DNA of 64,000 nucleotides from Isoetes taiwanensis (lineage: Eukaryota; Streptophyta; Lycopodiopsida; Isoetales; Isoetaceae). The translations under genes and the position numbers were made by a program. Positions 25,587 to 63,200 of the stretch are shown here, piece by piece (the first letter of the stretch is position 1; every line of letters starts with the position of its first letter). The notes beneath the pieces are model-generated. The model was not told the DNA's origin, searched no databases, and saw only the letters and a program-made list of their open reading frames with translations. The DNA lies in the NCBI GenBank assembly GCA_021234155.1, contig JAJEKV010000014.1:21095513-21159512 (forward strand), in the 5' to 3' direction.

Positions 25587-26370
25587 CGCATCGATCCGAG
25601 ACATCGGATCGACATTCTAGAATGGGGCGAGCATGCATGTCTTGCATGCATGCATGCGGCGCATGCCCTTTCTGGTTAGAGTTCGCTATTTTAGGCGCGG
25701 TTCTGCATCAACGTCTCATCGGCGCTTCCTCTTCTCTCAGCAGTACCTTATTCTCTTTGATTTGTTTCCAGGCAGGGGAGGGGCTTCTTCCTGCTTGGTT
25801 TGGCCCATTTGGCATTTCTGTCATGCTGTGGCATGTCCTTTCTCGGCCTCGGCCCTTCTTTAGCCTTCATCCTGTGACCTTCGTCCTCGATTCTAGTTTG
25901 ATAAGGAAGTTCCCTGGTATTCGGGCGGTTTGTTGGTTTCATGCGAGCCCCATTCTAGAATCGCATCGATCCGAGACATCGAATCGACATTCTAGAATGG
26001 GGCGAGCATGCATGTCTTGCATGCATGCATGCGGCGCATGCCCTTTCTGGTTGGGGTTTCGCTATTTTAGGCGCGGTTCTGCATCAACGTCTCATCGGCG
26101 CTTCCTCTTCTCTCAGCAGTACCTTATTCTCTTTGAACCCACCCTCCCCCCCCTTCTTTGTTTATTGTATTATTTATCATGCTTTTCTTCCACCCGCTGG
26201 GTGATGCTTTTTTCCACCCCCTGGGTGATGCTATCCTCTGGTATGTTGTGTTGTCTCGTTTGTTGTGTTTGTGATGTGCAGGTACAGGTTGGCGAGCGGC
26301 ATCTGTTTCGACTTCTCCATGCGGGGGGTTTTGGGAGCGATTTCTATGCCTTACGTTTGTTTAAGCCCCT

Positions 26371-26451
26371 TGCCGAAGGCTTATCACTAGGGTTTTTCCT
26401 CGAAAACCCGAAAGGGCGGGGTTTTTTAATCCCGATGATAAGCTTTCGGCA
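26371..26451 (+). ncRNA. Conserved stem-loop 1 in A unit 2
   Basis: TGCCGAAGGCTTATCA (26371-26386) pairs with TGATAAGCTTTCGGCA (26436-26451) with one mismatch. The enclosed loop has AAAACCCGAAAGGGCGGGG, which can form a GAAA-capped hairpin or AAAACCC/GGGTTTT. The copy at 54047-54125 has different stem bases that still pair and a nearly identical loop. I did not match it to a known ribozyme. Confidence 0.5.
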
Positions 26452-26529
26452 GGTACATCAGCCACTCATCTATTAGCATTGTATTTTTTGGGGTCCAAAT
26501 GATATAATTGGATTTTCCCTTTATTTTTC

Positions 26530-26560
26530 GTGGGTAGTTCGCATGTGTGCGGCTACCCAC
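26530..26560 (+). ncRNA. Conserved stem-loop 2 near 3' end of A unit 2
   Basis: GTGGGTAG (26530-26537) pairs with CTACCCAC (26553-26560), with an inner CGCA/TGCG pair. The B copy (54164-54200) has GGGGTAG/CTACCCC and CCGA/TCGG instead. A conserved tail, GAAGCCTATCTATC-like, follows about 50 bases later. Confidence 0.45.
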
Positions 26561-26649
26561 TGTCCACCATTGTAGAAAATCTGCTGAGATGAATGAGAAG
26601 CCTATCTATCGGGCGGTTTGTTGGTTTCATGTGAGCCCCATTCTAGAAT

Positions 26650-29540
26650 GTCCTGATATTTTGAAAATAAAGCAACACAATTGTCATACAAATCCCCAGT
26701 GATATTAGCCCCTAACTTTATTGTCTTTACTTCTCCTCCTTTCCCGAGGTTAATTTCTTGCACTTTAGGAGGTTGTGAGAAGGTTTCATATTGACTAATT
26801 TCATGCGCAGGCTTCTTTTCCACCTTGATCTCTTGAATTGTGCACTTCGTGAAATAATCAGGATATTTATCTTGTTTAATATCTTCTTCTTCTTCTTCTT
26901 CCTCACATTCTTTCTCCACTTCAACTTGGTTAACATCTATAACACCCATGAAATTTAGAATTGTATCCTCCAAGTCTACAACCGTGTCATCATAAACTCC
27001 GTACACACCTTCTTCTTTCAAGGTCATCTCCTCTTGTGGCTCACTAGAGGATGCTACATTTGCATATGCACTATCTGGATTATAATCAAGATCATCGTCA
27101 TCACTACTTTCACTATCATCGTCACTGGAATCAGATTCTACTTCAAATTGTGCAACAGCTTTTGGCATTTCACTCACCGTAATTTCCACCCTATTATTTC
27201 CATCACCAATAACTAAAATCCCTCTATGCCAATCGTGTATTGCCCTAGCCTGCAACAACCATGGTCGGCCTAATAATAATAATAATGGATAAGAACATAC
27301 CGTGGTGGTAGCTTTCAGAACTACATAGTCCACATAGAATACAAGATTTGCAATCATGGTTTTTACACCGGTAATCATGCCTAAAGGTTTTACTCGTCTC
27401 TGATCAGCCATCCTTACTCTAAAATAAACAGGAGAAGGTGCAGGTAGGTCTAATCTTCGAAGAGTTTCTTCTGGCATAATGTTAACCCCAGATCCGCCAT
27501 CAATCACAGCAGAATCTAGCCCTAAATCCCCTATAAGAACATGCACAGATGGAGATTTCATATCAAACAAAGAGGGCCATATAGAATTAACGGATACATC
27601 CTTCTGCAATCGTAGAGCCGTAGCCACTTCCTTTCTACACGAAGGGGATAAGGACAATAATTGGGTAAAAGTGATAGTGGGTCTGATATTACCTAAATCA
27701 GCCAATATATCATAAGTAGGCATGTCCTTGAAAAGTTTTAGAATTTTCTTGTATTTCCTTTTATTCCTTCCTGGTTTCCTAGGTTGCTCACCAGTCTCTT
27801 TCTCGTTTAGAGAAGATGGGTTTTCTGCTTCCATAATACCTTTAAGTTCTTCAAATGTGGGCGTGTCATGCAAGGTCTCCTTGGGAGTGTCTTGGGTGTC
27901 ACCTAATCCTAAAAATTCGGGCTTTTCAAATCTCACACGTCTACTCCTCCTTTGATTATTAGGATTTAATTGCATCTGATAAATGGGGCATGAATTTTCC
28001 TCTATTGGTTCACATAAATTAGAGTCAACCATTTTTTCTTTCCCCCTAGACCCTTTATCCATAGATCGTTGTGGCAATGCATGAGGACATCTATCTTGTG
28101 AGTGTAAACCTTGAGTATTACAAATGCCACACACAGGTTCAAAACCTACTTCTTTTCGTGGATTGGGACAATTAGGAGCTACGTGGCCAATTTCGTAGCA
28201 CCTATAACATGTCACTTGTCGTTGAGGCCTTGTTGGTCTTGGTAATGGCCTTGAAGATCTATTGTTTGCATCCTTTCTACTTTGCATAGAAGGGTCAGCA
28301 GCATAAACTGGTATTAATTGTGGACTATCGTTTGCACTTGTTTGGATATAATAGCTAGGGACACTAGAAGACTGCATGACTGGTCTTACATTAGTTCTAG
28401 GCCCATTACCTCGTTGCTGGAAATAACATTCATCATCTGTATGATTACTTCTTCTACAATGATTACACCATTTCCTAGGATTAGTGAAGGGACATTCATT
28501 CGAAAAATGGCCATAACCTTGGCATTGGACACACCATACATTCTTTCGAGGTCCAGGTTGTGACTTGCTAGTTGTTCCATCTTGAGAGGGTTGCTTAACA
28601 TGCTTAGTTTTCAAAGCTTCATCGATGGCTCTCTTAATAGTTGCCTGAATATCCAAGGCAGAAAGTTGATTTTGAGATATTTGTGATTGTGACAACCCTC
28701 CAGGAGTTGTACCATATGGCATCCTACTATAATCAATTAATTTTGGAGATACATAATGAATATCTATATCCGGCACCTTAGATTTAACACTTTGGACTAC
28801 TGGGGCATATAAGCTAGGAATATCTGGCATAGAGGAGTTCATTCCTGCCAATTCCAATTGAGATGCAATTTTAATGGCCGCTTCTAAGGTAGTAGGTGAT
28901 TGCAATTTCACAAAAAAACCCATGTGCTTAGGCAATCCTTTTATAAACCATCGAATCTGGTATTCTACATCAGGAAGTTTAGGCTTTTTACCTAGAAGTC
29001 TACGAAATCTATTCACATAGCTTTGCACAGACTCCTCTGGCCACATAGTAAAATCTTGCAGTTCATCATCTAGCCTATCTACAAAACCTGCTGGCCTAAG
29101 ATTTTCTAAAAAGGCATCTTCCAACTCCTTCCAAGTTGTATATGTTGTGCTCTTCGACGAATGACGATACCATTCGGAGGCTCCTAAAGTCAGTGTGGCT
29201 GGGAACCACCTTAGTCTCTCTGTGTTTGTGTTTTCTTGGTTTGCCTCGCTCACAGTTAGGAAATGACTTATATGTGCATCTGGATCCTCTCCAGCTTTAC
29301 CCCCAAAGGTACTATAGCGCATGCGCGCAGATTTTGCTGGTATGGTTGTCATATTTTGTAAAATTTGGCTTTGTCTGTGAAACAGATTCCTTAAGTGAAA
29401 ATCTTCCTCCTCTTTCAACTTACGTGCTATCTCCCTTCTTACAGATCTTTCAACTTACATGCTATCTCCCTTCTTACAGATCTTTCCCGTCTCAATTGAG
29501 CTTGATGCTCTCTTTGTTCTTTAGTTAGCGAGGGATACAT
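26650..29540 (-). pseudogene. Ty3/gypsy gag and aspartic protease
   Basis: Gag starts at ATG 29540 (MYPSLTKEQREH). It is thrown out of frame by a perfect-phase 35-bp tandem duplication (29411-29445, 29446-29480) and then stays open for more than 900 codons. Seen in order: a gag capsid region (LRWFPATLTLGASEWY), three CCHC zinc knuckles (CVQCQGYGHFSNEC, CNHCRRSNHTDDEC, CYRCYEIGHVAPNC) and a CX2CX5HX4C fourth. A basic linker leads to a retropepsin site, AVIDGGSGVNIM (about 27473-27508), and an acidic Glu-rich tail. The reading continues into RT but for the A insertion at 26649. Gag would package element RNA; the protease would mature the polyprotein. Confidence 0.88.
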
Positions 29541-29786
29541 ACATCATAGATATACTATGGGTGGCAAGTCCCAGCTACGACAGTGGCACCCTCGCTCTTC
29601 TGTCTAGTCTGGCGCTCTATCCCCTTCCCCTACCTAGTGTTGCTCCCATCTCTCTCTAATTTTGTCATTTCTATTAAGATTTGCAGTGGATAGGAAATAG
29701 CACTGTTCTAGAAATAAGATTTTCTTTCTCACAGTTCTAGGATGCAAAGTTTATGCATCGGGTTAATCCCGCTTTCATAAGCCCAA

Positions 29787-29803: not shown

Positions 29804-29807
29804 AACA

Positions 29808-30983
29808 TGTAAAGGGTTTTCGTGTGTAGATGACAGACATTGAAGTCCTACCCAGGTTAAGGCAATATAAAATATCTAATTGGTAATACCATGGACATCT
29901 TAAGATATTCATCCACTAGCTCCACTTGCATTCAGCAATATATTTAGAGTAGCAAAATTACTATTGATTTAGTGGCAGAATTGAACCGCTTATACCATGT
30001 AATAAGATGCACACTATTTCAATCAATCCTCATATGCAGTAGCATTCACAACAGAATAACATCAGTTTTTTCTAACCTCTTAGGCAAGGGCAATAAATCA
30101 TTTCCAAAACCAGTGACAACAATTAACACCGTAATGGAATGCAGCACTAATAATTAAATATTCAGAGTATGCTATTCATAACGAATAATCTAAGAACAAA
30201 CAGAGTTAACTGCAGTATATTCAATATGCATAAACCAATTATCTGCCACTGTTATTTCACAAATAAGTTCTGATGCAGCCTTGCAGCAGTAATGGTTTAA
30301 TACTTAGATATGAATAACCAGTAACACATAATATAAGGATCTGTTCATCATATTAGACTTGAATATAGAATGTTCTACAGTATTTATCTCAGGAATAAGA
30401 TATGAACACTAACACTAGTAATGAGGAAAGACCATATTCATAGTTCAGATTTGCATAACAGAATAATGGATAGACTTATCTCGTAATAGCCACAAAATTA
30501 TCAGATCTCCTGGTGACTCTCCATGGTTCTGCACTGGTCGGCTGCCCTAAATCTGCTATGATCCGCTCACCAACTCTGCTCTGATCTGCTCTCGAATCTC
30601 AAGTCGGTCTGATCTCTCAATCCGATCTCCATATGGTCGGCCCTGATGCCCTGGTCCGCTCCTCCCTTCCTTCCGCTCTCTGCAACCGTAATCTGCTTTT
30701 TGCCTTCATGCCTTTTCATTCAAAATAGGGCTTTTGTTCTTAGCCCTTAAATTCTAATAAATCTTCAGCCTTGGTTTTATTTTAATAACAATCCTTCTTT
30801 CCATATTACAATCAATATCTTTCAATTTCAAGTAAGTTCCCATGGTCAAATAACAAATAACCTCCAAATATGATAATTTCACACATTTTTCCACCACTCA
30901 CAATAGTAGAACGACACGGTAATGCTCTCATAATCATGTTTTCATCCAAAATGCACAATTTTGAACAAATTATTCCTTCTACA
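29808..30983 (-). repeat. 5' LTR, truncated
   Basis: The stretch 29808-30746 matches 10533-11472 and 30743-30983 matches 19303-19543, uninterrupted here. This gives the empty-site reference for the Harbinger-like insertion. Homology ends at about 30983 (TTCTACA), so the U3 start is lost. Confidence 0.85.
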
Positions 30984-32488: not shown

Positions 32489-33159
32489 TTAAGTTTACCG
32501 AATCCGTTTCGTATTGCGGGAGGGTATTCTTGCAATGGTGGAAACTATGATTTTGGTATTGTATTGTATTGAAAATGGTATGTGTGTGCATGTTTGAGCT
32601 GCTTTTTTGTTGTGAGGGGCAAGTTTCTATTTCAGTGTTGTCTGTGTGTGTCATGTTTTTTTAAGTGAACCCAATCGTGTGAGAAAAGAAATTTGAAGCC
32701 TGTTTTGGGAAGCTCCCGTGTGTCCATATGCCACTGGGTCGAATGGGGAAGGAGACGGCGTCAGAATCAAGCAACAATCGAACGAGGGCCACGATGGTTG
32801 CTGGCCATTCCATGCCGCCAGTTTTGCCTCAGCCGTGATCGCCTGCTCGGCGTGGAGCGCCTAGGTGAGGCTCTATCCCTTCTTTTTGTCATCTGTGTTT
32901 TCCAGTAGTGTAGGCAGAGAAGCGTAGGCAGACAGGTGCACCAGAATGATGATGAGAAGGGATGCAAGATTGAGGGTGAAGGTATAGAAGATGCCTTCGC
33001 CTAGCCTCAGGCGTGAGATCTCTGTGTGTGGAATTTGCAGGGATAAGGAGGGCAGGCAATGCATGCACAGCCTTGATGAGCAGGGTTTGAGGCCTGAGAG
33101 CAGCAGCGCAGCAGAGGCCAGGAGGAAGAGCCCCGGAGATGCTGGCAGGTCTGTCACAT

Positions 33160-34260
33160 GGGCTGATGTTGCAGCCACAGCTGGGGATGTTCTTGTCCAC
33201 GGGAGGGACGATTTGACGTGCAGAGGGAAGTTGGGGAAGATTCGAACCGTGGGATTCGGCAGCCTGTTCCTGCTGCTGTGTATGAAGACAAAGCTCTCTC
33301 CTTGTTTCCAAAACCCACTGTTCAGGGCCGTGCTGAGAAGAGCAAGAAGGGGGGAAGAGGAGGAAGCAATGCTGTTTCTGGAAGAGGGAAGAAACTCGGG
33401 CAGACAGACTGTGTGACAGAATCTGTTGTGCCCCATGTTGCAGAGGAGATGGAAGAGTATGTGCAGACTTCTGGCGGAGGCAAAGTTGGTGGACGTGGGA
33501 GAGGAAGGGGAAGACGGGGCCCGAGTATCATTGAAGAATGCGTTGGAGCGGATATTGGTGGGGGTCCTGGAGAGGAAGTTGTAGACATGCCAGTCTTCTT
33601 GGATGTTTCAGTCACAGTTGTGTTTGGTGGTTGCGATGTGCCCCAGGCACTCTACACAAGGATGGTGGAATTTCTAAAGGAAAATTGCAGGGTGGGAGTA
33701 GTAGCTCTAGAGAGGGGCTCCTCTCTAGACCACTTACATGTGCAGGCCGTTATGCGCTCAGATGCAAAAACTCCTGCTAGTGTCAACGTCAGAATAAAAA
33801 ACTTTCTGGGTTAAAATCAAAACAGGCCTCCAGGTGCTATGATTCTCTGCAAGGCTCTCCATGGGAGCAAATTGCATTGTTTTGAAGGCATTGCCGGGTA
33901 CTGCCTAAAAGACATGGGCAAGATGCACTTCAAGGTGCACCTGCACAACGTAACTGCAGATCAGATTGCTGTGGGTAAAGAATTGTATGCAATGTATGGT
34001 GCAGGTGAGATGAAGCACCTGATCATGCTAGATAACAAAAACCTCTTGCCTTGGGCATTCCATTACGTTCTGTATCATGCAGGTAGATTTAGAACAGTAT
34101 CATTAATCCACACAGTGAAGTGCATGCTATAAACAGGCAAATTCAGATTATGCAGCTCGTGGGTTCTCCCCAATAACTCATCATTTGTCTCCTTGGAAAG
34201 AGTTCAAGCAGCTTGGCGAATAATGCTAGGCCCCGAGCGATGTACTTACGCCGATGTAAG
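33160..34260 (+). pseudogene. HUH (Rep-like) endonuclease, left-arm copy
   Basis: Seen in one frame: a Gly/Arg-rich linker (GGRGRGRGRRG), a first strand VSVTVVFGG in the place of Rep motif I, the HUH motif in SSLDHLHVQAV (33731-33745), a stop TAA (33812-33814), then GIAGYCLKD with the YxxK catalytic motif III (33899-33910), and VHLHNVTADQ. A probable short intron follows (donor after CATGCAG about 34083, acceptor ATTCAG about 34149). Upstream, a one-base deletion near 33203 (relative to the other arm) shifts the frame. Such enzymes nick single-stranded DNA via Tyr and join ends during rolling-circle-type transposition or replication. No helicase domain is present. Two disruptions make this copy inactive. 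Confidence 0.65.
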
Positions 34261-34774
34261 AATGGCCCTATTTGGTACTCGGCTGGTGTGATCTGGATAA
34301 AACGTGTAGACAAAGCGGAGGCGCTTACGGGATCGGCGAGGGGTGTTTGAGGATGGGGAAGGGGAGAGAAAGGAAGCGGCCGGGGATGAATTTATTTATG
34401 CAAATCTTTGAAGTGCGGCCAGTCGCCTCCGAGACCTTCGACCCGATGCCTCATTCATTAAAACGATGTTCATGATCATGATTTGATGTCATATAATGTA
34501 GATGCCTTGCTTTTTGCATTGATTAAACTTACCGGATGCATTTAATAATCCTTCTCTATTTACTTGCGGGAGAGAATAGCCTGGAGGACATGGAATGCTA
34601 AGGGAGCGCGAAGTGATTGTAATTAGCGATAGCTCCCGGGAGGAAGATTCCGTGAACCAATCCGTTGTGGAATGTGAAGGTAGACATGATGCTTTGGCTT
34701 GGGAAGAGGCACAAGAAATTAAGTGAAGGGCGTTTGCAATGCTGTCCAAGAACTTCGTTTGGCATTGTCCCACA

Positions 34775-35110: not shown

Positions 35111-35859
35111 TGTGGGACAATGCCAAACGAAGTTCCCTCGGACAGCATTGCAAACGCCCTTCTCACCTCTTGTGCCTCTTCCCAAGCCAAAGATCGTCTA
35201 CCTTCGCTCCAATTCTCGCGACATTCCACAACGGATTGGTTCACTGGAATCTTCCTCTGGAGCTACCGCTAATTACAATCACTTCAAGGCCCTCAAAGAT
35301 TCCATGTCTCCTCGCCATTCTCCCCCCGGTAAATAGAGAAGGATTATTTAAATGCAGAAGGATTATTAAATGCATCTGCGTGTTTAACCGAATGCAAAAG
35401 GCAAGGCATCTACATTATATGACATCGAAAATCATGATCATGAACATCAAGCGGAATGAATGAGGCATCCGGTCGTGAAGGTCCGAGGCGTCGACCCCAA
35501 AGACTTGCATAAATAAATTCATCCCCGCCGCTTCCTTTCTTCCTCCGCTTTCTTCCCCATCCTCAAACACCCCTCACAGATCCCGTAAGCTTCCTCCGCT
35601 TGCCTACACGCCTTTCTGTATCACACCAGTCGAAAGTATCAAACAAAATATTCTTACATCTACAGAAGTACAAACGGCCTAGCATTATTCGCCAAGCTGC
35701 TTGAACTCTTTCCAAGGAGACAAAGAATGAGTTATTGGAGAGAACCCACGAGCTGCATAATCTACCTAAATCTACCTAAATCTACCTGCATGATACCGAA
35801 CGTAATGGAATGCCCGAGGCAAGAGGTTTTTGTTATCTAGCATGATCAGGTGCTTCACC

Positions 35860-45516: not shown

Positions 45517-46981
45517 CCCATCGATCCGAGCCATCGGATCGCCATTCTGGGAAGGGACAAACACCTATATTAGGCCATTTCCGTCTTCGGCCCGGTTATC
45601 GGCGTCTTCTCACAGCAGCTCTTCTTCTTCTCTCGTGGCTTCTCTCCCTTCCCGCCTTATCTCGGATCTTCTAGCCTTTCCTTGTCCATTGCTTCTTTCC
45701 TCCCAGCCTTATCTTGGATCTTCTAGCCTCAGTTTGCCTTCCTCCTTTTCTCATATGCACAGCTCTTGAATTACAAAGTTTAGTTCATTTGCCTCCTCGA
45801 TTGGGCGTTTGCACGGTATAGCTTATGAGCTTTGGTTTTCTTTTTTTCTCATTTCGATGCATGCCAATCGTCCTATAATTTTGAGGTATGGGTTTCTTTC
45901 CAATCATGTTGCATGCCAATAGTCATGTTCCAGAGGAAGATTTAGTGGAATCTTACTTGTTTCTGGTCAATTTGCCTGATCCAATTTTGCTTCAAAGCCA
46001 TGTCTGCCAATTCTTTTCTGATCGTTGTTTTATGCATTGGGCGTGCACTTTTTCTTCTCACAGAGTCTGCTAGCGGATTGGTTTTGCAGAGGTAATGCAC
46101 GAATTGTTCTATTATGCTTAGCATGCTTGACGGCGGCCTGGAGTTCCCTGTTAACGATCATCCAACGGCAATCCGCTAAAGGAGCGAGTCTATCTTTGTG
46201 TGTGATCTTGTTCCAGTCCAGCATGCAAGGGCTTCATCCTGCTCGATCCTTGGGAGGCAGTGGATCTCTGGCTACGCTCGGCATTGGTGACTTCTTACTT
46301 TGCACCAGCTTGGATTCCACCATAGTTTTATGATTATGCACGTTCTGCTTCCTATGGATTTGGGCGCTCTTCTTATTCGGCGGAATGGGTTTAAGCCATG
46401 CAGTCACATGGTGCTAATATCTAGCCTCTGATTCTTGCTTTTCACCTCTGATTCAGCAATGGGTAATATTTTGGCCTCTGATTCTTGCTTTTTGCCAACC
46501 GCCTGCTCCATGCACTCCTATCTGATTGCCATCAACTCTATGGCATTGTGATACGAATCGACAGTTCCACAGCAATCCCCCTGTTCTATAAATCGTCTCC
46601 TTGCCATGCGGATTTCCCCTGGTTTTCTATTGGCATCTTATTTCACATATTTGCAATTTGATTGTTCCTGGACAGCAGATCGGCCAATCTCCTTCGATGT
46701 TTCTGTTCTCTGTGCTTCTTTGCTTTTTTTGCAGGGGACGGTTTTCTGGCGGACAGAAGGAGTAGCCGGATTCCTGTGTTCCGGCTTGCAGATTGCTGCT
46801 AGGTAGGTCTTCTGGGCCGCCGATCCGCCCTGCCACCTTCGGCTGGTTGAATCCAGCATTTTTTGCCCTCATCTCTTTCTGAGCCTGCCTCATCCCAGCT
46901 GCTTCCGGTGGACGAAACCCTCTTCTAGAGTTCTCCATGATCTTTTCTGCTTCTACCGGCACCTTTTCTGCTTCGAACCTA

Positions 46982-47046
46982 CCCATCCAAGGAATGTCGG
47001 TTCTATTGCTATCGCAATAGAACCGTGGCATTCCTAGGATGGGTCC
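46982..47046. repeat. C-type junction hairpin
   Basis: CCCATCCAAGGAAT and ATTCCTAGGATGGG flank the hairpin GGTTCTATTG-ctatcg-CAATAGAACC, giving a nearly perfect 60-base palindrome. On the minus strand it is the right end of C followed by a second, truncated C start of about 50 bases. Confidence 0.8.
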
Positions 47047-47654
47047 TATGATACAACTAGTTGGCCGATAGAAGAGGAATCTACCTCAAAGGAATGGAGC
47101 AAGCCAAAACGTCAAGAAAATAGAAGGCAAAAGGTGAACGAAGGGAAAATAGGCCACAAATGATGAATAGAACAAATCAGAAAAAAAGGGGCAACCCAAC
47201 ACAACTACAAAGCAAGGATGACATAAAACGGGGATAACGAGGGTAGAGGGCAAAGAACATGATATATGGACACCAACAAAGAAAAGAGAATTAAGGTGAA
47301 TCAAGAGAAGCCATGGTAAAAATAGAAATGAACGCCATGCATTCCAGAAAGACTAGTGTAATACACACATGATGGACCGAGGGAACTAATGGAGTCATTG
47401 GAATAGAAGAAGCAAGACCAAAGTGGAGGAAAAACGAGGCAATAAGCAAAAAGCAAGAAGGGCACGACACAAAGAAGTTAAGGGGGTCAAAGTGGAGCAA
47501 GGAAAATAGAAAGAAAAGACAAGGCAAATAAAAGCAACCACAAAAAAGGCACGACGCAAAGGAGTAATGGGGTCGAACTGGAATAGACAAATAAACTAAA
47601 AAAGGAATTAAAAGAGCGTCAAGAACCCAACAAAAAACTGAGAAGGAAAACACA

Positions 47655-47762
47655 TTACGTAAAGCACGTAGACTAAAAACGATATAGAATAATACTTCTA
47701 TGGACATATACGTAAAGCACGTAGACTAAAATGATATAGAATAATACTTTTATGGATATATG
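47655..47762. repeat. Tandem repeat, about 55 bp x 2
   Basis: ACGTAAAGCACGTAGACTAA followed by GATATAGAATAATACTT occurs twice. Confidence 0.8.
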
Positions 47763-50700
47763 CACCAAAAAGATCCAAACTCCAAAACCTAAACCCATCA
47801 CCACAGAAAGGACAAAAACTACGTCAAGGCAAATAGAACAAACAAGAACCAATAAGAACCCAAAAAAGGAACCATGACTATGGGAAAAACATATTCTAGA
47901 GTAACAAGGAGAAGGCGGGTGAACTAAACAAAGGAACTGACGGAGTATGTGAATAAAGTACAAGAGGTAATGAAAAAATGATCAACAAGGCCAAAGAGGA
48001 TGAACTGGACTAACAAACAGAGCAAACTAAGACAAGGGGGGCAATAGGGCGGAAGCAAATTGATGAAAAAATGGGCGTTCCAAGAAGCTTAGAATGAAAG
48101 AGACAAATGGGACAAATAAAAGAAAACATGGCTAAGCAAGGCTAGTGGGGAAACTTGGAAAACCAGGGTAATGGGCAAAAAAACATCATAGATTGTCAAC
48201 AATTAAGGGCAAAACAATATTAAGGCTCCGCGAGATGAGCCGCAAAACACAAGAGACAAGACAAATAAGGAACAGATGAACTAAGATGATACAAGAGGTT
48301 ACTCGACCAAACAGAGCAGAAAGGACAAATAAGGAACTGGAGCAAATGGAGAAATAGACAAATGAACCAAATTGATTTAAAAACGATTTAAGAAGTCAAT
48401 GATTAAACGAAGGAGCGAGGATAAAAAGAATTTGTGAAAAAGATAGATAAATAAAAAATGACCCAAAAATGAATCAAATAACTAAGTGAAAACGGACAAG
48501 GAACACACCAGCATACATAGAGCAAAAGAACAAACCAAAAGAAGAAAAGAACTAATTGAGAACGAAGACGAAAAGACAAACAAAACACAATTGAAAAGAA
48601 TATAGAATCATAAAAAAGGAACAAAATATATGTAGAACATAGAGCAAAATGAACAACGAGACTATAGAGAGCAGAAACATGAAATAAGCTTTTGCCGAAA
48701 TGGGTTAAACAAAGCAAGTGATAATAAACACAAACCAAGTCCAAAAGGAGCAACAGAAAATAACAAAAACGAGCAAATAGAACAATACGACACGTAGGAG
48801 CCGCTGACATGAGCAAAAGAAGAAGGAAATGAGACTAAAATGAAGCACCTCAAAATTGACGACACAAAGACATACCACAGCTATAGCATCTAAGGTAATA
48901 AAACAACCAGGTTGCTTACATCTAAAAGTAACGGAATGGAAAGACAACGATCAAAGATGAAAAGAGAACTGGGGAAAAGAGACAAGTAGAGGTAAAGGCA
49001 CAAAGGATGCCCGTGTGCAACCGATCAAGAATCCAAAACGCACATAGCCTCGAACATGATAAGAGCCAACCAACACACCAAGACTGAGAAATTAAGCTCT
49101 ACGAAAAATCACGCCAACCAAAACTTAGACCATTAAGACTTAACAAGAGTGCAAGGAAACGAGACAAGAGTGGATGGAGAAGATCAAACATCTAAAACAA
49201 AGGCTAGAACAATGCAAAGAACGTAACCATGTACATATTCATCGATACCTGAATGAATCAACAAACAACAAACATACAAAAGCTTGAGAGAGAACCTGAT
49301 GAAGATTATGGAACACGGAACTCTAGCAACCATGCCATCTCTCCGATAAATGAATGTATCGAAGGCACTAGAGCCGTCAAGTCAATGTAGACAAAACCTA
49401 GGAGTTACTTCCCTCTATAGGATGGAAAAGAGACACTCCAGCGAGAACAGTGGAAGAAAACTAACAAAAAGAATAATAGAATAGTAAAGATGGAACATGC
49501 CGCAGAACGAAAAAGATACAAATGTTATAAAAGTCGTCAACTAGACAACCAACCATGCTGGTACTATATGCTAAATGGGTGGTCACATCGCGAACAAAAA
49601 TTACCATGCCAAATGTACCTATATAAAAAGCTAACTCAGCAAAGAAAAACATCTCTAAATGAAATCAAACCAGATGCGTGTTCCAAAGACTTGAAGATAT
49701 AAGGTGCAAGAGATGCCAATATTGAGAATGCGAATCGAATTCAGGGAATAGCTATATAATGAACTAGGCATCAACTCAAGGTACTAAATGCCCAAACGGG
49801 ATGCTCTCACCAAAGAATGAAGCTCCTTGTGCAAAAACGCACATATGCAAAGAGCGAATTTACCTGGATCCAGACAAAATCGAATTGCATCGTCAAGTAA
49901 CATATGTAAGATGATGATACAAATTCTCAGTCGCCTCCATGCAGATAAAAACTCGCCCACAGCGAATGAAAAGAAATGCGATTAGATGGCAAGGTTAGAA
50001 GGTGTAAAGCACCACCTCTAAACGCTAGAGCAAAAATAGAAATCAAGTATATGAGAAACCAAAATTTTGTGCAATGATCCATGACTATGAAAGAAAAACC
50101 TAGATGTCAAAAACTTATTTCAAACAAATGTTGAAGAAACAATTGAAAAACCAAATATGAAAAACCGAAAATTTGTGCAATGACCCATAACGTGACTAGC
50201 AATGTTGCGCTTCATGACCAAAAACAAAAACGAGTCCAACCAACTGAACCCGAGAAAATTTTGTGCGATAAGGCATTAGGCCATTTTGCAACTCTCAATA
50301 AAATAGAAACAACCCCACAAAAATGTATACCCAAAATCCAAGAAATCAAACAATAAAAAACTTACAGTTCCATTGAACAAACCCTAGAAATGTCTCCCGG
50401 TCGCACACTTAAAATTGTACTCCCATTGCAAACTCAGCATCATGAACCATGGGTCATCCATTCTGGGAAACTTAGATCATCTATCTCGGGAACCTTGGAC
50501 CATCGAAGCATTAGAGCACCCACTTCGAAAGCGACATGTGACGCTCTCCATGGATGGGATTGCGACAATGCAAACTCAAAACCCACCAACCATATGTTTC
50601 CAAAGGGGAACAACTCCATTATATATATACCCAACCACTAGCAAACACTGGTGCACGACCAACAAGGAAAGACGTCCCTGCAATCTAAAAAGTTGTATGG

Positions 50701-50872
50701 GCATAGCACCCCCAAAACAACAGAAGAAATGTCATGAAGCAAAAATCGACTTAGAGAGCCCCATAATGTGGAATTGTGGTATTAAAAACTACAAAACACC
50801 ATATGACAGCGGACCCAATCACTTGTGAATAAGATGATGAGACAATGGACAATAAAAACAACTGATATAAAA

Positions 50873-51085
50873 GGTCTAGAGCAAAGAGCCCCTAAGTTTC
50901 TAAACATGCAGAGCAAAGAGCCCCATAAGTTTCTAAACATGCAAATAAGGTGACACGGGAATGAAGAATAAAGGAAAGTGAAAATTGATCTAGGAGGTCT
51001 AGAGCAAAGAGCCCCATAAGTTTCTAAACATGCAAATAAGGTGACACGGGAATGAAGAATAAATGAAAATGAAATTGATCTAGGA
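50873..51085. repeat. Tandem repeats, about 40 and 110 bp units
   Basis: AGAGCAAAGAGCCCC with AAGTTTCTAAACATGC occurs three times. The longer unit including AAGGTGACACGGGAATGAAG and GATCTAGGAGG occurs twice. Confidence 0.8.
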
Positions 51086-51324
51086 GGTTGAGAACAGAGA
51101 GCCACATGAGTCCACAAGGGCCTTCCTAAGAGGAAAACAAGAATGCTACCTAATGCAAATCTAAAAAAAAGCAGAAGCATATAGCTAAAAAACCTAGATC
51201 TAATTAAAACAAACGCACAAAATAAAATACCAAGGGAAGCAGGAGCTCGGTATCCTCAAGCCATGGGAGGACAAGGGGAACCGACTCCGGGTATCCCCAA
51301 AACCTGATGACAGAAACGGCAACC

Positions 51325-51510
51325 GGTTGCGGTGGCAGGCCGATTGTGACGGCCGATTGCGGTGGCGGCAGGCCGATTGTGGCGGCCGATTGGGAAGAAC
51401 AGGAGGATTGGTAATTGCGATTGGCAGGATTTTGAAGAACAGGAGGATAGTTTTTTGAAGAACAGGAGGATTGGGAAGAACAGGAGGATTGGCCGATTGG
51501 CAGGTAGGGA
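51325..51510. repeat. Minisatellite GGCCGATTG / GAAGAACAGGAGGATTG
   Basis: Several GGCCGATTG-type units (51339-51390), then at least four units of GAAGAACAGGAGGATWG (51395-51495). Confidence 0.75.
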
Positions 51511-52403
51511 ATTTCACAGGTCTGATTCGAAAGGGGGAAGCCACAAAAGCAACAGAGTCGGCCTAGCACCAAATCGACAGGGTTCTGGCTAAGGAGACAT
51601 GGTGCAAGCCATGGAACCCACGAAATCGAAAAGATAGAAGGACTGGCAGAGAATCGACTGGTTAAAACAAGAACCATCCGAATTGATCAAAAAAAAGGGG
51701 GCCTGCATGATTGCATTGGCTCGTGGGCCAGGGGGTGTGAGCCGATTTGCAGAGGGGTGAATCAGCCAGGAGACAGATCAACGGAAGCAGTTGTTGCTTG
51801 TTCTACAGAAGCCAAAGTTTAAGAACATCCACCCAGATCAACTCTGCAAAAAAGGGTGAGAAAAAAGGAGCAAATATAGATGTAAAGCAATCCAGACCAG
51901 ACCGGTAGCCACACCTGAAATAATAATTCAAACAAGAAGAACCAGAACCGACATCTCCCTTTCAACCTAAGAATTAGTCAGATCCCAATCCGAGAATAAA
52001 AATAAAACAAAGAAAGAAGGGGGCACAAGCAGGAGTCCAGAAACAAAGATTACAAACTCTACCTATCACGGATCAATGCGCCGACATTTAAAAAAGGAAT
52101 CTAAGAAACTAACCTGGACATTATGCGGATGAACCGCCCAATAAATCGATGTCCAAAGAGAGACAACCCCATAGTTCTTCACGACACCGTAAAACCCAAG
52201 CATTCAAGAGAACGGATCCAAGCCAGCACAATCAAACCGCTTGCTGTCCTTGAATCAAACCGCTTGCTGTCCTTGTAGGGAAAAGCCTTGAAGATAGCAA
52301 ACTTGTGAGCGTTGGAAGGTAGAAAACTTGTGGAGCTAGAAAAGAGCAACAAGGAAAAGAAGCTCAAGAGAACGCCGATGACTGCAAATGAGGAAGGAGG
52401 CGG

Positions 52404-52411
52404 TATAAATA
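52404..52411 (-). promoter_or_regulatory. TATA-like box of element C
   Basis: On the minus strand ATTTATAC lies about 70 bases inside the element start, before a pyrimidine-rich leader. B elements have CTATATTA at the equivalent place. This suggests the hairpin end is promoter-proximal. Confidence 0.4.
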
Positions 52412-53398
52412 GGAGATACAGATAGAACGTCCCCATCCAAGGAATGTCGGTTCTATTGCTATCGCAATAGAACCGTGGCATTATCTCAGTTACTTGTTAT
52501 TAGATTTTGTCCACAGGTTTGGAAGGAATAATAGCCATATTCACGGACTTCGGTCCGTAATTTGTATTCACATACGACAACTATCTATGTGATCTGCATT
52601 CATTTCATCTGTGCATTGTATGCATTAACGTGGTTTGTTTTTTCATCGCCTTGTTGCCATTCTCGTTGGCATGCCGGGGCGCTTCCTTAGATTCGTCATC
52701 GTGGCGGCGTGCTTTTCTTTTCATTGTTTTTGTTCTCTAATGTCCTTTCCTTTTTCAGGTCATTGAGCTGATACCGTCCATAGCAGGCGCCTCCAGCTCT
52801 TCTTCTTTTTCAGCTTCGCTTTCTCCCCCACGGCTGCTCGCGCTGCTGGTTCTCCTCGTCAACGCGTAGCTTTCTTCTCGCTTGAACCAGACTCTTCGGA
52901 TTCTGTTTTCCTTTCTCTCCCTGCCACTCCAAACGAGACCAACTTGCCTGTGGTCATACGTTTTCTTTAGCTCGCCTGCATTCGTTCGCATGCCCCGTCA
53001 CTATCCTTCAGCACCTAATTTCTACCGGTTTTTATCATCTCCTCGATCCTCCGTCCGGCGGCTCTCTTTTTCGCTCCTCTCCTTCCTCTCTGCGTCCTTT
53101 ATCCTATCCGACTGCTCGGGGGGGGTGGCGAGAGTGTCTTCTGGCTATCGGCTTAAATCCATCCTAGTATGGTACTCATTCTGCTCGTCGCAGCAGGGTC
53201 TAGGCGGCTGTCGCTCGGGGGGTTTCACATGATGCTGCGCGTGCTCACGGTCGCTGGCGCTCCTCTTCTTCTCTCTCCCGCTATGTGCTTCGCGATCCAA
53301 CTCAAGACCAGGAGGTTTCGCGGTGACTGGGCTTATAGTTGAGGAAGTCCTTTGGTAGTCGGCCGGTTTTGTGTCTCTCGCGAGTCCCTTCCCAGAAT

Positions 53399-54258
53399 CC
53401 CATCGATCCGAGCCATCGGATCGCCATTCTGGGAAGGGACAAGCACCTATATTAGGCCATTTCCGTCTTCGGCCCGGTTATCGGCGTCTTCTCACAGCAG
53501 CTCTTCTTCTTCTCTCGTGGCTTCCCTCCCTTCCCGCCCTGCTGCGTGGGCGCATGAGCCTTTTCATTTGTATTTTTTGTTCATGTACTCTTTCTTGTGC
53601 TCCATCTGTGGATGTTGCTATTCTCATGTTTCTGTTTCATCGGCATCCTGCTGCGTTATTCTCCACCTGCGGGTGATGCTGTTTATTTCCACCTCGAGGG
53701 TGATGCATATTTTTACATAATGGTTTTCCACCCGTTGGGTGCTGCTTTTTCCACCCTATGGGTGATGCTCTCTTTTTTTGTCATATTCTTTTTTCATCTG
53801 TTTTCATTTCTCATATCTTCGGACCTTCTTGGTGCAGCTTGTTTTTTATGGCTATGCCTGTTTGTTTTCTCTAACCATTTACGGGTATTTTTTGGGGAGT
53901 TTTTTGTATTGCTTGCAGGATTCCGCCGTCTTCCGCCGTCTGCTAGGGCACATTTGAGGTCTTCGCCGTCTTCTGGGGTCCTGCTGGCTTTGCGTTCGCC
54001 ATCAACCCATCTCCTCCCGTTCTCCAGGCAACACATTCAAGGCTTTTGGCGACCATTTCTGATTAGGGTTTTCCTCAAAAACCCGAAAGGGCGGGGTTTT
54101 TTATCCCGATGAGAAGTTGTCGCCATTACCCTTCTATATTGCCTATGCACATTTTCTGTTTGTGGGGTAGTCCGATATTGTTCCTATGGTCGGCTACCCC
54201 TCTCTATTCTTCACAACATTGTATACTGCTGCTGTGATGAATGACAAGCCTATCTATC
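53399..54258 (+). mobile_element. Hairpin-ended element B copy 2 (tandem)
   Basis: Begins immediately after the right end of copy 1, so the junction forms a nearly perfect 57-base palindrome (53384-53440). Contains stem-loop 1 (54047-54125) and stem-loop 2 (54164-54200) homologous to A unit 2, and stops at GACAAGCCTATCTATC (54258) without the GTCCCTTCCCAGAAT arm. ORFs inside (for example 53597-54112) have no domain. Confidence 0.65.
54047..54125 (+). ncRNA. Conserved stem-loop 1 in B copy 2
   Basis: TGGCGACCATTTCTGA (54047-54062) pairs with TGAGAAGTTGTCGCCA (54110-54125) except for two mismatches. The loop keeps AAAACCCGAAAGGGCGGGG. The stem sequence differs from the A copy while pairing is kept. 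Confidence 0.5.
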
Positions 54259-56038: not shown

Positions 56039-56040
56039 AA

Positions 56041-56876: not shown

Positions 56877-57471
56877 TAGCATAATAACAGGGGGTTTTCT
56901 TTGTATTGCAAACTTTATGACTTTCAAAATAATGGGATCAATCTGCTCTATCTTTATGGTAAGTTTTACTTATGTTCTATTTGTTTTATTGTGATCAAAT
57001 TCAAAAGCTACAGGTGATGAAAGCCTCAAATGAATTCTATTTTTTTTTGGTTTGAATTCTAAAATTTTTGTCACCTAAGTGGCGTCCTTAAGGCCCCCGG
57101 AACCAAAAATTTTTTGCAACACAAGCCATTAACATCCAACATATAAAAATTAAATCTCCCAACACATAACAACCATTGACATTAATTAACACAACCATTG
57201 GGTCCAACACATTTAAATTAAAATCCCCCTTAAACCCCCTTTGGTTTGGGTGCATATTCACACGGGGGTTGACGTAGGGCAGCGAGAGCCCTCATAATTG
57301 TATTTTGCACGTATGAAATCAACACCATATAGTATTCCGCTTGAAATCTTATAGTATTTTACGAATCTTGTTATACAGTATAGCAAATTTTGTACTTGCA
57401 TACCCCACAAACGAGGAACTTTACGTACGGTATAGATTAAGGAATAAGGGGTGAATATGCCTATCCAACAG
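56877..57471 (+). mobile_element. Short F element (F3) with foldback module FB4
   Basis: AATAT then GTAGCATAATAACAGGGGG at the left; from about 57090 a foldback module with GGCCCCCGGAACC in place of the usual hairpin, then ATTCACACGGGGGTTGACG. It breaks off after CCTATCCAACAG at 57471, lacking the inverted right arm. The arrangement of left end plus foldback repeats that of F1, with almost no cargo. Confidence 0.6.
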
Positions 57472-59955
57472 CCGAACATGCCGAGGATAACGAATCCGCC
57501 AAATTCTCCAAAACGGGACAAATAACTCAGATGCAAATTTCTAAACCATAGGAAAAGCCCACAGACCCAATTTTTGCAATATCGGGAATTTTTTCCGGTA
57601 CCTAAAAGCCATGAAACCTTAGGAAAAAAATTTAAGAAAAAAATCCAAAACATTTTCGGAACCTCGGAAAAACCGAATTTAAACAATAGGATAATGAGAA
57701 GAGCAACTGCAATTTTTGGAATAGTTGTGCATCCAATTCATGTGTATGAAATTCCTGGGTGAAGCGATAGCTTTGGTCTAGAATTTGAACCCAGAGTTAA
57801 CCATCCATCATGATATGAGTTGTTTACAGTGCTACATAACATAACAGGGCTGCTCAATTAATATCATCCATTTATTTGCAAATCAGCATATGTACACGTC
57901 ACATATATAGGTTCTATCTTCAAGACTCTCCCTGAACTATTTATGTGAGACTATATACATTACCTGCACAATATATAGATGTCCAAACCTACACTACACT
58001 TCATATGCAGACTATGTACAAACAATCCTGGTAACTGGAATCCGAGACTGAAAATAATACACCAAAATTGTTCAAACAAATCATTTGTGCCAGCTTGAAC
58101 TCTCCCTGAGATCAAGCATCTCTGCCATGGCTGCAAGCTTGTATCATACCCTCCCTAGCCACCAACATCCCTAGAACAATCTTTTTTGACCATTAAAGCA
58201 TTTCCTATCCCAATCTCAAAGATTTTTCATGTGACTATTGCAACTGAATCCATTAGAGTACTCGCTCATACTCAACAACTTCTGCCTTATCCAGTGGTTA
58301 CACCTTTGCACCAAGATCCTGACAGCTTAGCTCCCTCATGTTCTAGCACCAATGACCTTACTGAAGCATCAGCAAGCATTCAGTGTATCAGATTCATATC
58401 AAAATCTCAGAGACTGCAGCCATAATTTTAGGATCTACAAAACCGCCAATGCCTTACAACTTTTTTTAGTTCAGATGCTTTACAACCATAATTCACCCTG
58501 AAATCAGGATCTCCTCAAACCGCAAGCTTCCTTAAACCATCTTCTCCCTTAACAAGTTTCTGCGTGCTCTGAACACAATTCATAAATTCCGATTACCAGA
58601 AACTATTTTGAACTTGCAGTCACAATGCCGTTCACTTTTCACCCAATTCAGACCAATGCTTACAACCAATACATTCCCCTCTTGAATATCTTCCCCTTGC
58701 TATGTCTACGGATCCATCTCAGCTGCACCCTAAAGGAGCAGACCATAAATCAGAGATTCAGGCCAATCTCTTCATGAGATCGAACTATGGTTTGTAGACA
58801 GAGCTTGATAAATTCTGCTGTACGTATTCCCTCTTCACTTAAACCAAATGCGTAATGTTCAATTATCAATCTTGTACAAGGGACTAGAAATCCAACCTAA
58901 AAGAATGCTCTCAAACAAGACTCACAGCATATGCATAAGATTGCTCCTTTTCTGCCTCGAATTATCTCTCGTTGTAATCTCCCAGATTTGCAAAACACCT
59001 CAAAAACTGCAAGAATCTTCTGATTGATTGACATAGTATATGTAAACTGGCTTTAGTAAATAAAGCAGGTCAAAAATAGCTCCACTGATCCATCGTCCAA
59101 ACAGGACCAACCAAACCCAAATGCTGTCGCTGCAGATATCCAATAATATTGCCAAAAACAGAGATCCAGCACAAATGTCTGCACAAGACAAAATCACCAC
59201 AGGTCCTGCATAATTTAGGCAAGCCTAACCCAAATGTAGCAGATCAACTGTAAGTTGACCTTTTCTCAACGCAAAACCGATTAAAATCTAACCAAAATGC
59301 TTTAGCATCCAAGAGCTCATGTTTCAAACTACCCATAAACACCCCTTGATATGCAGCCAGAGAAGCAAGGTCAAATCCACTCACTTGATCTGCTGGGTGC
59401 AGAGGTATTCTCTAAAGCATAAGCCACAGATGCTTGTTGTGCGATATTCCCTGCAAAATAGAATGCCCTAAAGGATGGAGTGGCTTCTAAAGAAACCCTA
59501 AAATACCTTGTTCGATGCCGAAATGGGTTGTTTCTGATCAATGCAGTAATGGGCGATGCAGGACACGAAATAGCTCAGCCAGAACTGCTTGGATTCTTGT
59601 CCTAACTCAGGAGTGAGGGACATCTGCAAAATAACCTGCTCCAAGCGGCCAGCAAACCCTAAACTTTGGCATACATGTCTGCCTTATGAAACGACCCCCG
59701 GCAAGAAGCCCTAATCTTTGTCTGCTCGATGCTTGCATGTGAAGGGCCATTAATATAATGTGTTTTACATAACAAAATAATGTTGTGACCATTGAATTGC
59801 CAAGGGAAAAAAAAAAACAATGACACAACGAGCATGGAAATACTAGATGCACTCTAGAAGTACTAATTAGTACACCATGCGCAATACGGCAGCCAAATCA
59901 TAGTAAAACCATAGGAAAAAACGTATAAAAATACAAAAACAACCCCCTGTCATAA
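57472..59955 (-). mobile_element. Element F4 left end at 59955, right end unknown
   Basis: On the minus strand CTAGCATTATGACAGGGGG after ATAT, then TATACGTTTTTTCC and TCTAGAGTGCATC, match the F start. Sequence further in (to 57472) is unrecognised and may be cargo. The claimed extent beyond the first 150 bases is uncertain. Confidence 0.4.
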
Positions 59956-60206
59956 TGCTAGATATAGCAATAATTGGCATGGATTGCTACAACTATAAGA
60001 CAGTAGGATAATAAATCAGTAAAGGGTGAAAGCATGCTACGGTGTACCACTTTTGGAACCCTCAAAAGTACCTACACTGGGTACTTTTAAATCTGGTACT
60101 TTCATAGTTTTCTTTCCACTAAAATCAATAAAAAAAATTGAATTGAAGGTCAATAACATGTCAATCTATAGTATCAAAGAATAACCATACTGTTAGAAAC
60201 TAAAAT
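59956..60206. other. Short intergenic, nothing recognised
   Basis: AT-rich flank between F4 and B copy 3. Confidence 0.4.
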
Positions 60207-63200
60207 CCCATCGATCCGAGGCATCGGATCGCCATTCTGGGAAGGGACGAGCGCCTATATTAGGCCTTTTCTGTTTTGGCTCGGTTATCGGCGTCTTCTC
60301 ACAGCAGCTCTTCTTATCATCTCGTAGCTTCCCTCCTTTTCCGCCTTATCTTGGATCTTCTAGCCTCAGTTTGCCTTCCTCCTTTTCTCTTTTGCACAGC
60401 TCTTGATTTACAAAGTTTAGTTCATTTGCCTCCTCGATTGGGCGTTTGCACGGTATAGCTTATGAGCTTTGGTTTTCTTTTTTCTCATTTCGTTGCATAC
60501 CAATCGTCCTATGATTTTGAGGTATGGGTTTCTTTCCGATCATGTTGCATGCCAATAGTCATGTTCCGGAGGAAGATTTGGTGGAATCTTACTTGTTTCT
60601 GGTCAATTTGCCTGATCCAATTTTGCTTCAAAGCCATGTCTGCCAATTCTTTTCTGATCGTTGTTTTATGCATTGGGCGTGTACTCTTTCTTCTCACGGA
60701 GTCTACAAGCGGTTTGTTTTTGCAGAGGTAATGCACGAATTGTTCTATTATGCTTAGCATGCTTGACGACGGCCTGGAGTTCCCTGTTAACGATCATCCA
60801 ACAGCAATCCGCTAAAGGAGCGAGTCTATCTTTGTGTGTGATCTTGTTCCAGTCCGGCATGCAAGGGCTTCATCCTGCTCGATCCTTGGGAGGCAGTGGA
60901 TCTCAGGCTACGCTCGGCATTGGTGACTTCTGACTTTGCACCAGCTTGGATTCCACCATAGTCTTCTGGTTATGCACGTTCTGTTTCCTTTGGATTTGGG
61001 TGCTCTTCTTATTTGGCGGAATGGGTTTAAGCCATGCAGTCACATGGCGCTAATATCTCGCCGCTGATTCTTGCTTTTCACCTCTGATTTAGCAATGGGT
61101 AATATTTGGCTTCTGATTCTTGCTTTCTGCCAACCGCCGGCTCCATGCACTCCTATCTGACTGCCATCAGCTCCATGGCATTGTGATACGAATGGACAGT
61201 TCCACAGCAGTCGCCCCTATTCTATAAATGGTCTTCTTGCCCCGCGGTTTTCTCCTGGTTTTCTATTTGCATCTTATTTCACATATTTGCAATTTGATTG
61301 TTCCTGGACAGCAGATTGGCCAATCTCCTTCGATGTTTCTGTTCTCTGTGCTTCTTTGCTTTTTTTGCAGGGGACGGTTCTCTGGCGGACAGAAGGAGTA
61401 GCCGGATTCCTGTGTTCCGGCATGCGGTCGGCTGCTAAGCGGGGAGTTACGGGCGCCCGATCCATGCCACCCACCTTGCGGCTGGTTGAATCCGGCATTT
61501 TTGCCCTCCTCTTTTTTACGAGCACGCTGATCCGCCACCACCTTCGGCTGGTTGAATCCAGCATTTTTTGCCCTCATCTCGAACTTAAACGTCTTTCTAT
61601 AGTTCTCCTTTATCTTTTCTGTGCTTCTAGCGTACCCTTTTCTGCTTTGTGAGCTCCAGCCTTTACCATGATAGGCTATCCAGCTCTGACTGTTCAGATG
61701 GCTGCTGCAAGACTCCTGTAGATTTGCCTCCCCAGCTGGCTTTTCATGTCAATCTGCATGTCACTAGACCCACAGATCCCATCGCCTCCATAGGGCCGGA
61801 GATTCAGTCTATCTCCTACTTTTCTACAGAGATGCTTTAGGCTGGCCATGCTGTTGCAGAATTTGCTCCTTCAAATGTTCGGTCTCCTTCTTTTACTCCA
61901 CAGGCGCTGTCTTCTCAGCCGGATCTTTCTTTTTCCCCTTCCGCTTAGGAGCGTTTTAGTTGGTTATTAATTTGGGTTTAAATGTTCTCTAAAGTTTTAA
62001 CATTTGTTTGGTCCATTTTTTGTATGATGCCTTCTCCATGTCGCCATTGCACTTCTATATATTTTGTTTTTTCTATGCTAGGTTTTTTATTCATATGTGG
62101 TTTTGCTTCGCACGTCATGGCTTTTATGCTTGTCAATGGGATTCGCCATTTGTTTGGCTATATTTATTTGCTGGCTAGTTTTCATCTCACTGGTTTTACA
62201 TTTGGACAAGCCCATCGGGATGGGGTATGTAGTTTTCCAAAAGTTCTGGCTTTGAATGTTGGCTCTTCATCTCATCCACATTTCCTCGAGCACTTTCCTC
62301 CTCCAATTCTCTATATTTTTCCTTCTTCCCCTCTCTTAGGATGAAATTAATGAACGCAATTTTGGCATCATATGGGGGCTACGCTATTTGTATAGATACA
62401 TGCCTCTTTTCTTTACGTTTACTGATTTTTATTCTATTGGAATTGGCAGGAGTAAGATGTTAATTTTGACGTTCATCGTTTTTGAAGGGGTACAAAATGT
62501 TGTTGTAAGCTGGTGTAGATACCTTAGAAGGCTACGATTCATCTTGTTACATATTCAATTTTGTCTGGACATGTGTCATTCCTGTTGGTTTGGAATTTCT
62601 TTAGGACGATGGGAGAGCAGTAGCCCTTTGACCTTATGGGTGCATTTGTATGGGTTTAACTTGGTCATTAAAGTGTTTTTTCCATAAGGTGTGTTTTTGC
62701 ACGTGTATATTGCTTTTAGCATAGGGGGCGCATCTGGTCCGTGTGGCATATTATTCTACATGTATTGTCCTTTTCATCTCTGGCACCTTATGTTTTCGTC
62801 ATTCTTGTTGTTTACCTTGATATTATCCCTATGTTGCATTCACGTGATCTATTTTGACTTTTTATGTTCGGCATCATTCGAATTTGCCTTTTTTCCTATA
62901 TACGATGTCTCCACTTGGTTTCCACGTTGTGCTTATTATGCACTATGAGGGTTGATTTTCTTTTTCATGTTCTTGAACGTTGTTCTCCTCTTTTTAGGCG
63001 GGCGGGGCATTACCATGGTTGCATTTGCTTTTTCACGTTATTGCCTCTATATGTTTCCAGATGTTTCATGGTTGTTATCTTTTTTGCGTTATGGTTGACA
63101 ATATGGTTTCGCTTTATGTTGGCATGTTTTTGCGGTATATGCGTTTACATGGTTGTTTGACTTTTTATGTTCGGCGTCATTTGAATTTGCTTTTTTTCCT

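Follow-up and report, generated by a model that had tools for sequence, protein, structure and literature searches.

A stretch of 64,000 nucleotides from the lycophyte Isoetes taiwanensis (contig JAJEKV010000014.1; hereafter the window, meant at its full length) carries three families of hairpin-ended inserts, A, B and C, which we consider very likely to be non-autonomous rolling-circle transposons with Helitron2-type ends. Membership of Helitron2 rests on structure, the ends showing most of the structural features that define that group, and by analogy the elements probably also work like Helitron2. In the Helitron2 orientation every unit reads as a 5' ATTC..GGG arm and, at the other side, the inverted arm, a hairpin, five bases and a 3' end lying against a target ATT. 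The original prediction, made from the letters of the window, read the units backwards with respect to this convention. All unit strands are given here in the Helitron2 orientation, as follows.

25587..25961, minus strand: A1, a 375-bp Helitron2-like unit with its 3' hairpin end at 25587
25592..25611, no strand given: 3' hairpin of A1, CGATCCGA-GACA-TCGGATCG
25614..25628, no strand given: subterminal 3' arm of A1, ATTCTAGAATGGGGC
25962..26649, minus strand: A2, a 688-bp unit head to tail with A1, its 5' end at 26649 being the outer end of the array
26635..26649, no strand given: terminal 5' arm of A2, the inverted partner
45517..53398, minus strand: B1, a long B unit that the C array interrupts, with its hairpin end at 45517 and its 5' arm GTCCCTTCCCAGAAT at 53384-53398
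46982..47029, plus strand: C-a, a first C unit represented only by its 3' arm and hairpin, to the left of C-b
47030..52479, plus strand: C-b, a full 5450-bp C unit with its hairpin at 52449-52474 and arms at 47030-47043 and 52432-52445
53399..~54255, minus strand: B2, a short B unit joined to B1, about 40 bp short at its 5' end compared with B4
60207..64000 and beyond, minus strand: B3, a long B unit of 5950 bp ending at base 2156 of the adjacent 10 kb
Outside the window, directly after B3 in the adjacent 10 kb: B4, a short unit of 1035 bp

All four starts proposed originally (25587, 45517, 60207 and, on the minus strand, 52479) were confirmed: each is preceded by AAT, and the order read from each start is the AAT flank, then CGC, CCC or GCC, the hairpin and the arm. 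The hairpin stem is 8 bp long in A and B and at least 10 bp in C, and five bases separate the hairpin from the 3' end. Each unit is closed by the inverted partner of its arm, which ends in AAT. This part of the prediction is exact for both far arms of A (25947-25961 and 26635-26649) and for B1, which holds the only B far arm within the window, but the C arms are unequal (ATTCCTAGGATGGG at 47030-47043 against CCCATCCAAGGAAT at 52432-52445, 13/14 pairs) and the copy starting at 60207 has its far end beyond the window. In further corrections, the insertions are head-to-tail arrays, and the hairpin of A2 has one mismatch. The arms measure 14-15 bp. The 5' arm is 0 nt from its end in all three families, and the 3' arm is 27 nt (A, B) or 34 nt (C) from the 3' end; palindromes occur inside the arms (ATTCTAGAAT in the A arm, TCCTAGGA in the C 5' arm). 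When seven 3' ends were folded and compared with shuffles, those of C folded strongly better (z -5.4 and -6.8).

The hairpin-ended layout is real and above chance. When the window was scanned de novo for a hairpin with an adjacent arm and an inverted arm, 16 rows were returned, mostly the A, B and C arrays, the remaining rows, at around 19 kb (hairpins) and 33-36 kb (inverted copies), being unrelated; the same scan gave 0-2 distinct hits in each of ten first-order Markov simulations. Across the assembly (1.658 Gb, 1,110 contigs), the exact 22-base A/B hairpin occurs 4,071 times (1,973 + 2,098 by strand) and the C hairpin 448 times (225 + 223), with 0 occurrences of either reversed pattern. Viral contigs gave 0 matches to the A/B hairpin; a looser hairpin found 116 bacterial stretches in genome contigs, which were taken as chance matches and not used. 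The samples of copies described below consist of the first places in assembly order, so they are non-random, overlap one another and include only copies with an intact hairpin.

The A array provides a well-defined insertion site, since it splits the frame of a Ty3-type retrotransposon, with gag on one side and reverse transcriptase and RNase H on the other.

24144..25616, minus strand: downstream part of the Ty3-type frame (reverse transcriptase, RNase H), its first bases extending into A1
26602..29454, minus strand: upstream part of the Ty3-type frame (gag), its last bases extending into A2

We joined 110 bases from each flank of the array with a single AAT and used the resulting 220 bases as an empty-site query, the empty sites being paralogous places in the same assembly for this one insertion site. 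The join matched all 40 scored places (40 of 79 candidates were scored) at 95-98% identity; 39 of the 40 alignments cover all 220 query bases and one covers 1-218, while the matched span is exactly 220 in 36 and 217, 218, 219 and 221 in the others. The ten best sites were fetched, and all ten are unbroken across the site with one AAT: CAAAAATGTCC, the sequence of the join, stands in eight of them, L209 among these carrying a change slightly upstream, and CAAAAATATCG in the other two. Therefore, nothing was duplicated or deleted at the A site, within an ambiguity of at most three bases. The predicted absence of a target duplication is likewise borne out by 20 complete copies or arrays (18 fetched, including L128 and L133, and two from the window), none of which has a flank duplication of at least 3 bp, the immediate flanks matching over 0-2 bases (2 in one copy). 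At the truncated B and C arrays, no duplication of at least 7 bases was found within about 60 bases.

These same 20 copies indicate which triplet belongs to the element. The far end is AGAAT in 19 of them and AGAAA in L128, and the triplet on the hairpin side is AAT (16 copies), ATT (two) or TAT (two); all four copies with a hairpin-side triplet other than AAT keep the AGAAT far end. A duplication would make both triplets alike, so the far AAT is the element's own. We thus rejected a 3-bp AAT target duplication, on account of both the single AAT of the empty sites and the unlike triplets at the ends of complete copies. The near triplet is mostly the target's, although its constant last T could be assigned to the element.

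The preference for AAT was also upheld. Among the first 100 of the 4,071 A/B hairpins, 37 tandem-like copies (TAGAAT or CAGAAT upstream) were set aside, leaving 63 non-tandem copies, of which a few may still be tandem and for which the pattern did not admit a G six bases upstream. All 63 have T next to the hairpin end, with A before it in 57/63, and the full triplets are AAT (38), TAT (10), GAT (9), ATT (4), GTT (1) and TTT (1), against a background AAT frequency of 2.5% in the fetched loci. In a second sample AAT precedes the hairpin in 25/34 solo flanks, for which 23/32 is the fairer figure because L149 and L152 adjoin another arm type. At 24 outer ends picked by eye from 33, the first base past the far end was G (11), T (8), A (4) or C (1), which makes the target roughly AAT^G/T. 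In the Helitron2 orientation, the element stands directly before ATT.

A hairpin at the end, a fixed adjoining flank and the lack of a duplication are also what single-strand excision and insertion of the IS200/IS605 kind would leave, and the original prediction had noted this resemblance. IS200/IS605 elements are defined by TnpA, a single-tyrosine HUH protein, and by subterminal hairpins at both ends; like Helitron2, they are single-strand HUH-type systems, and the likeness holds at this broad level. In the inserts, a hairpin stands out at one end only and the two ends are linked by a common inverted arm, which is the Helitron2 pattern, while thousands of copies and head-to-tail dimers fit a replicative rolling circle better. 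As the 20 open reading frames (ORFs) scanned in the window's units also include none like TnpA, we rejected membership of IS200/IS605 and regard such a mechanism as extremely unlikely. The 14-15 bp inverted arms at both ends could alternatively denote fold-back elements, or miniature inverted-repeat elements, mobilised by a DDE transposase. Such an origin has next to no probability given that the arms lie at unequal distances from their ends (0 nt on the 5' side, 27 or 34 nt on the 3' side), that no target is duplicated and that units join in direct tandem; DDE transposons with terminal inverted repeats (TIRs) were accordingly discarded.

The covariation of the ends claimed originally was recovered in a larger set. 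Both arms are of the same type in 38 of 44 elements, whereas 5,000 shuffles of the far ends gave a mean of 15.9 and a maximum of 26. The variants concerned are A with GGGAC/GTCCC or with GGGGC/GCCCC and B with GGGAC or with AGGAC. The same or a nearly identical hairpin also occurs with other arms, namely ATTCTCGAATGGGC (L149, L157 and L195 at 4434-4455 and 4820-4841) and ATTCTTGAATGGG (L152), and these arm types are further subfamilies.

Head-to-tail joining of units is frequent. Neighbouring hairpins lie on the same strand in 22 cases and on opposite strands in none for C (within 12 kb, first 100 of 448), and in 24 cases against one for A/B (within 8 kb, first 100 of 4,071); in this A/B set 13 spacings fall at 354-395 bp. 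Like A dimers, with the inner far arm 333-356 and the outer one 958-1071 from the hairpin, were found at 9 of 43 loci (L126, L130, L132, L135, L139, L140, L144, L147 and L161), and the window's A array gives 357 and 1045 by the same measure; these samples need an intact outer hairpin and are thus uninformative on a faster decay of the inner one. In family B, B1 corresponds to positions 1-1441 and 5117-5950 of B3 (89.5% identity in the main left piece, 70-98% in the right pieces), about 3.7 kb of B being absent where the nested C array sits, and B2 is 72% identical to B4 over nearly its full length. As B1 matches B3 and B2 matches B4, B1+B2 and B3+B4 represent the same kind of dimer at two sites. 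Like dimers between different flanks suggest that the A dimers probably travelled as a single unit; the alternative is that a dimer formed anew at each site. We also put forward, tentatively and as the less probable case, that a common transposing unit in A, B and C alike is a head-to-tail dimer in which the hairpin of one unit and the 5' end of the next are both skipped, two different units then moving as a pair. If so, a replicative "end-skipping" cycle would be a normal route by which these elements grow and capture DNA, and target choice would be read by the hairpin end.

Other features of the units were recorded. A promoter-like stretch lies just inside the hairpin end and is common to A, B and D-type copies (window 25629-25760, 45559-45690 and 60249-60380; L195 4431-5000); it contains CATGCATG repeats in A and D and CCTATATTAGG in B, followed by a CT-rich leader, and could be a transcription start directed away from the hairpin. 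The hairpin-first strand is rich in T in each of the eight unit pieces that were measured (T 0.34-0.43, A 0.14-0.17; window 25587-26649, 45517-54255 and 60207-64000, and L195 1-3191), including long units without coding sequence, and one idea is that this T-richness comes from deamination of an exposed single strand. A 64-bp inner block containing AAAACCCGAAAGGGCGGGGTTTT is 89% alike in A2 (26388-26451) and B2 (54064-54125), families that differ elsewhere.

A possible source of enzyme is present in the genome. The RepHel Rep domain scored above the cut-off in 150/150 places (150 of 1,813 candidates) in the assembly and in 0/14 control genomes, and 30 fetched RepHel loci fall into three groups. 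We propose that a RepHel protein supplied in trans would nick the hairpin (3') end and the 5' end, and that an (A/C)^ATT-like site would receive the outgoing strand or circle with no staggered cut, leaving no bases duplicated. The arm common to both ends may mark where copying stops; missing this mark would give head-to-tail dimers, which could later move as one unit.

The abundant RepHel genes, the hairpin near the 3' end and the absence of duplication would also suit canonical plant Helitrons (Helitron1) with unusual ends. The inserts show neither 5' TC nor 3' CTRR, carry inverted arms and have a hairpin that stops five bases short of the 3' end, and A^T alone does not describe their site; we therefore excluded them from Helitron1 and judge this explanation highly unlikely. 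Another candidate for the enzyme is encoded in the window itself. Two inverted 2.3-kb copies, 86% alike (32489-34774 and 35111-37382), each carry a Replitron_HUH ORF (33167-33811 on the plus strand and 36054-36539 on the minus strand; 31.8 and 34.7 bits against a Pfam cut-off of 28.5). The inserts might thus have been moved by a Replitron-type HUH protein rather than by RepHel, both ORFs lying within 10 kb of the A array. According to the accessible part of their description (PMC10741241), Replitrons lack TIRs, bear direct terminal repeats of 5-11 bp and duplicate 2-8 bp of the target; the inserts have inverted terminal arms and an immediate flank match of 0-2 bases in 20 complete copies. Moreover, neither A/B/C arms (up to 2 mismatches) nor hairpin halves (up to 1) occur in the two Replitron-bearing copies. 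Membership of Replitrons was rejected on the structure of the ends, and mobilisation by such a protein seems very improbable.

Several observations weigh against the assignment to Helitron2-type elements. As for the enzyme, the originally suggested search of long copies found none: the window's units hold 50 ORFs of 70 aa or longer, and the 20 of these that were scanned gave Pfam hits below the cut-off only, and nine ORFs scanned in C units contain no Pfam domain. The end motifs are absent from 30/30 RepHel loci (±1.5 kb) and from the extensions of four of them; longer RepHel copies of two groups (~10 kb and ~6 kb) have no A/B/C-type ends, three RepHel fragments have no match in the window or in 48 element loci, and the only match between the 30 loci and the A, B and C units is one of 20 bases. 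Since this is a small part of the RepHel set, the link is absent so far, which is not evidence against it. As for the ends, the improvement over shuffles is only modest for the A and B 3' ends (z -1.7 to -3.2), and the 5' hairpin is weak, since none of four 5' ends folded better than shuffles, though palindromes occur in the A and C arms. The concordance of arms is inflated by relatedness and can be partly due to descent, and 6/44 pairs are discordant: three look wrongly chained (window 45544 to 46995, L139 minus and L163), and three are real (GGGGC with GGGAC; 1, 1 and 2 mismatches). Two C pairs were scored concordant despite 2 and 3 differences in 15 bases. As for the target, the published site of Helitron2 is TTTT^T/C, and the ATT next to the 3' end here is similar but not the same. 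Finally, the flanks of L126 have a common 38-bp stretch, 33-34 bases from each junction, which may be a local target repeat or a longer duplication.

Two further repeats of the window lie apart from these inserts. Positions 29808-30983 repeat 10533-11473 and 19299-19543 in order, at 97-98% identity and with a 5-base overlap, as if a long terminal repeat had been split by a 7.8-kb insert with a 5-bp duplication. A dispersed repeat at 41711-42104, 366-875, 23829-24229 and 57159-57472 is in part an inverted repeat of itself (79% over 395 bp) and resembles a fold-back element.

The A/B/C set is abundant and ordinary in kind, and is notable because its copies are numerous, their ends match, the empty sites are clean and dimers recur. 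Thousands of lycophyte copies with matched ends make a clean set for testing Helitron2-type end recognition, on which tolerated changes of arm and hairpin, the target signal and the origin of dimers could be examined. Our results also suggest that annotation restricted to Helitron1 ends can miss such elements. Our search of the open-access literature, in which the part on Helitron2 in plants was judged by the titles listed, found no report of such elements in Isoetes, and the word Helitron is absent from the main text of the Isoetes genome paper (PMC8566536), as far as the accessible part of that text goes.

Comparison with known systems, based on the accessible parts of the papers, places the inserts among rolling-circle elements with asymmetric arms. 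With Replitrons they have in common an HUH-type system in seed-free plants, present by Pfam in the window as well; their arms are inverted and not direct, and their flanks match over 0-2 bases only. Helentrons and their non-autonomous HINE/DINE-1 partners (Thomas 2014, PMC4067079) have subterminal inverted repeats that are sometimes palindromic and a 3' palindrome, and the inserts resemble the latter in their palindromic inverted arms, 3' palindrome and non-coding nature. The Helentron features of a TT target, arms 2-4 nt inside the 5' end and a RepHel with endonuclease were not seen here, where no autonomous copy was found and the hairpin-side target is AAT/NAT and not TT. FoHeli elements of Fusarium (Chellapan 2016, PMC5148889) include RepHel-coding copies and have asymmetric TIRs, TNAT / T insertion (FoHeli1 and 2), joined-end forms and one near-tandem insertion. 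The inserts differ from them in sequence and in the position of the 3' arm (38-51 bp from the 3' terminus in FoHeli, 27 nt for A or B, 34 nt for C) and resemble them in the asymmetric arms, the TNAT / T-type insertion, the joined ends and the near-tandem insertion.

Helitron2 itself was described in 2013 (Bao and Jurka 2013, PMC3627910) with asymmetric TIRs, a 3' hairpin, no duplication in full-length copies and a T-rich target, arms that change in a compensatory fashion and 5'-truncated copies; its definition gives arms of 8-15 bp, the 5' arm 0-2 bp and the 3' arm about 20-30 bp from the end, its description includes a 5' hairpin formed by the 5' arm and, between its ends, a RepHel of the Helitron2 clade, and Helitron-5_SMo is among the elements listed. 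The original statement that no plant family has this layout is consequently doubtful. From Repbase naming, we take Helitron-5_SMo to be an element of the lycophyte Selaginella. The inserts depart from Helitron2, as described in the part of that paper available, in the fixed ATT beside the 3' hairpin end, the weak 5' hairpin, the recurring like dimers and the lack of a RepHel tied to A/B/C ends in the part examined. They agree with it in the 5' arm with an inverted partner inside the 3' hairpin, the absence of duplication, a T-rich target of similar but not identical sequence, the compensatory arms, the 5'-truncated copies and the arm distance, for which A and B (27 nt) fit the range and C (34 nt) falls slightly outside. 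Their main value is as a rich, dimer-forming and very probable example of the Helitron2 type in a spore-bearing plant.

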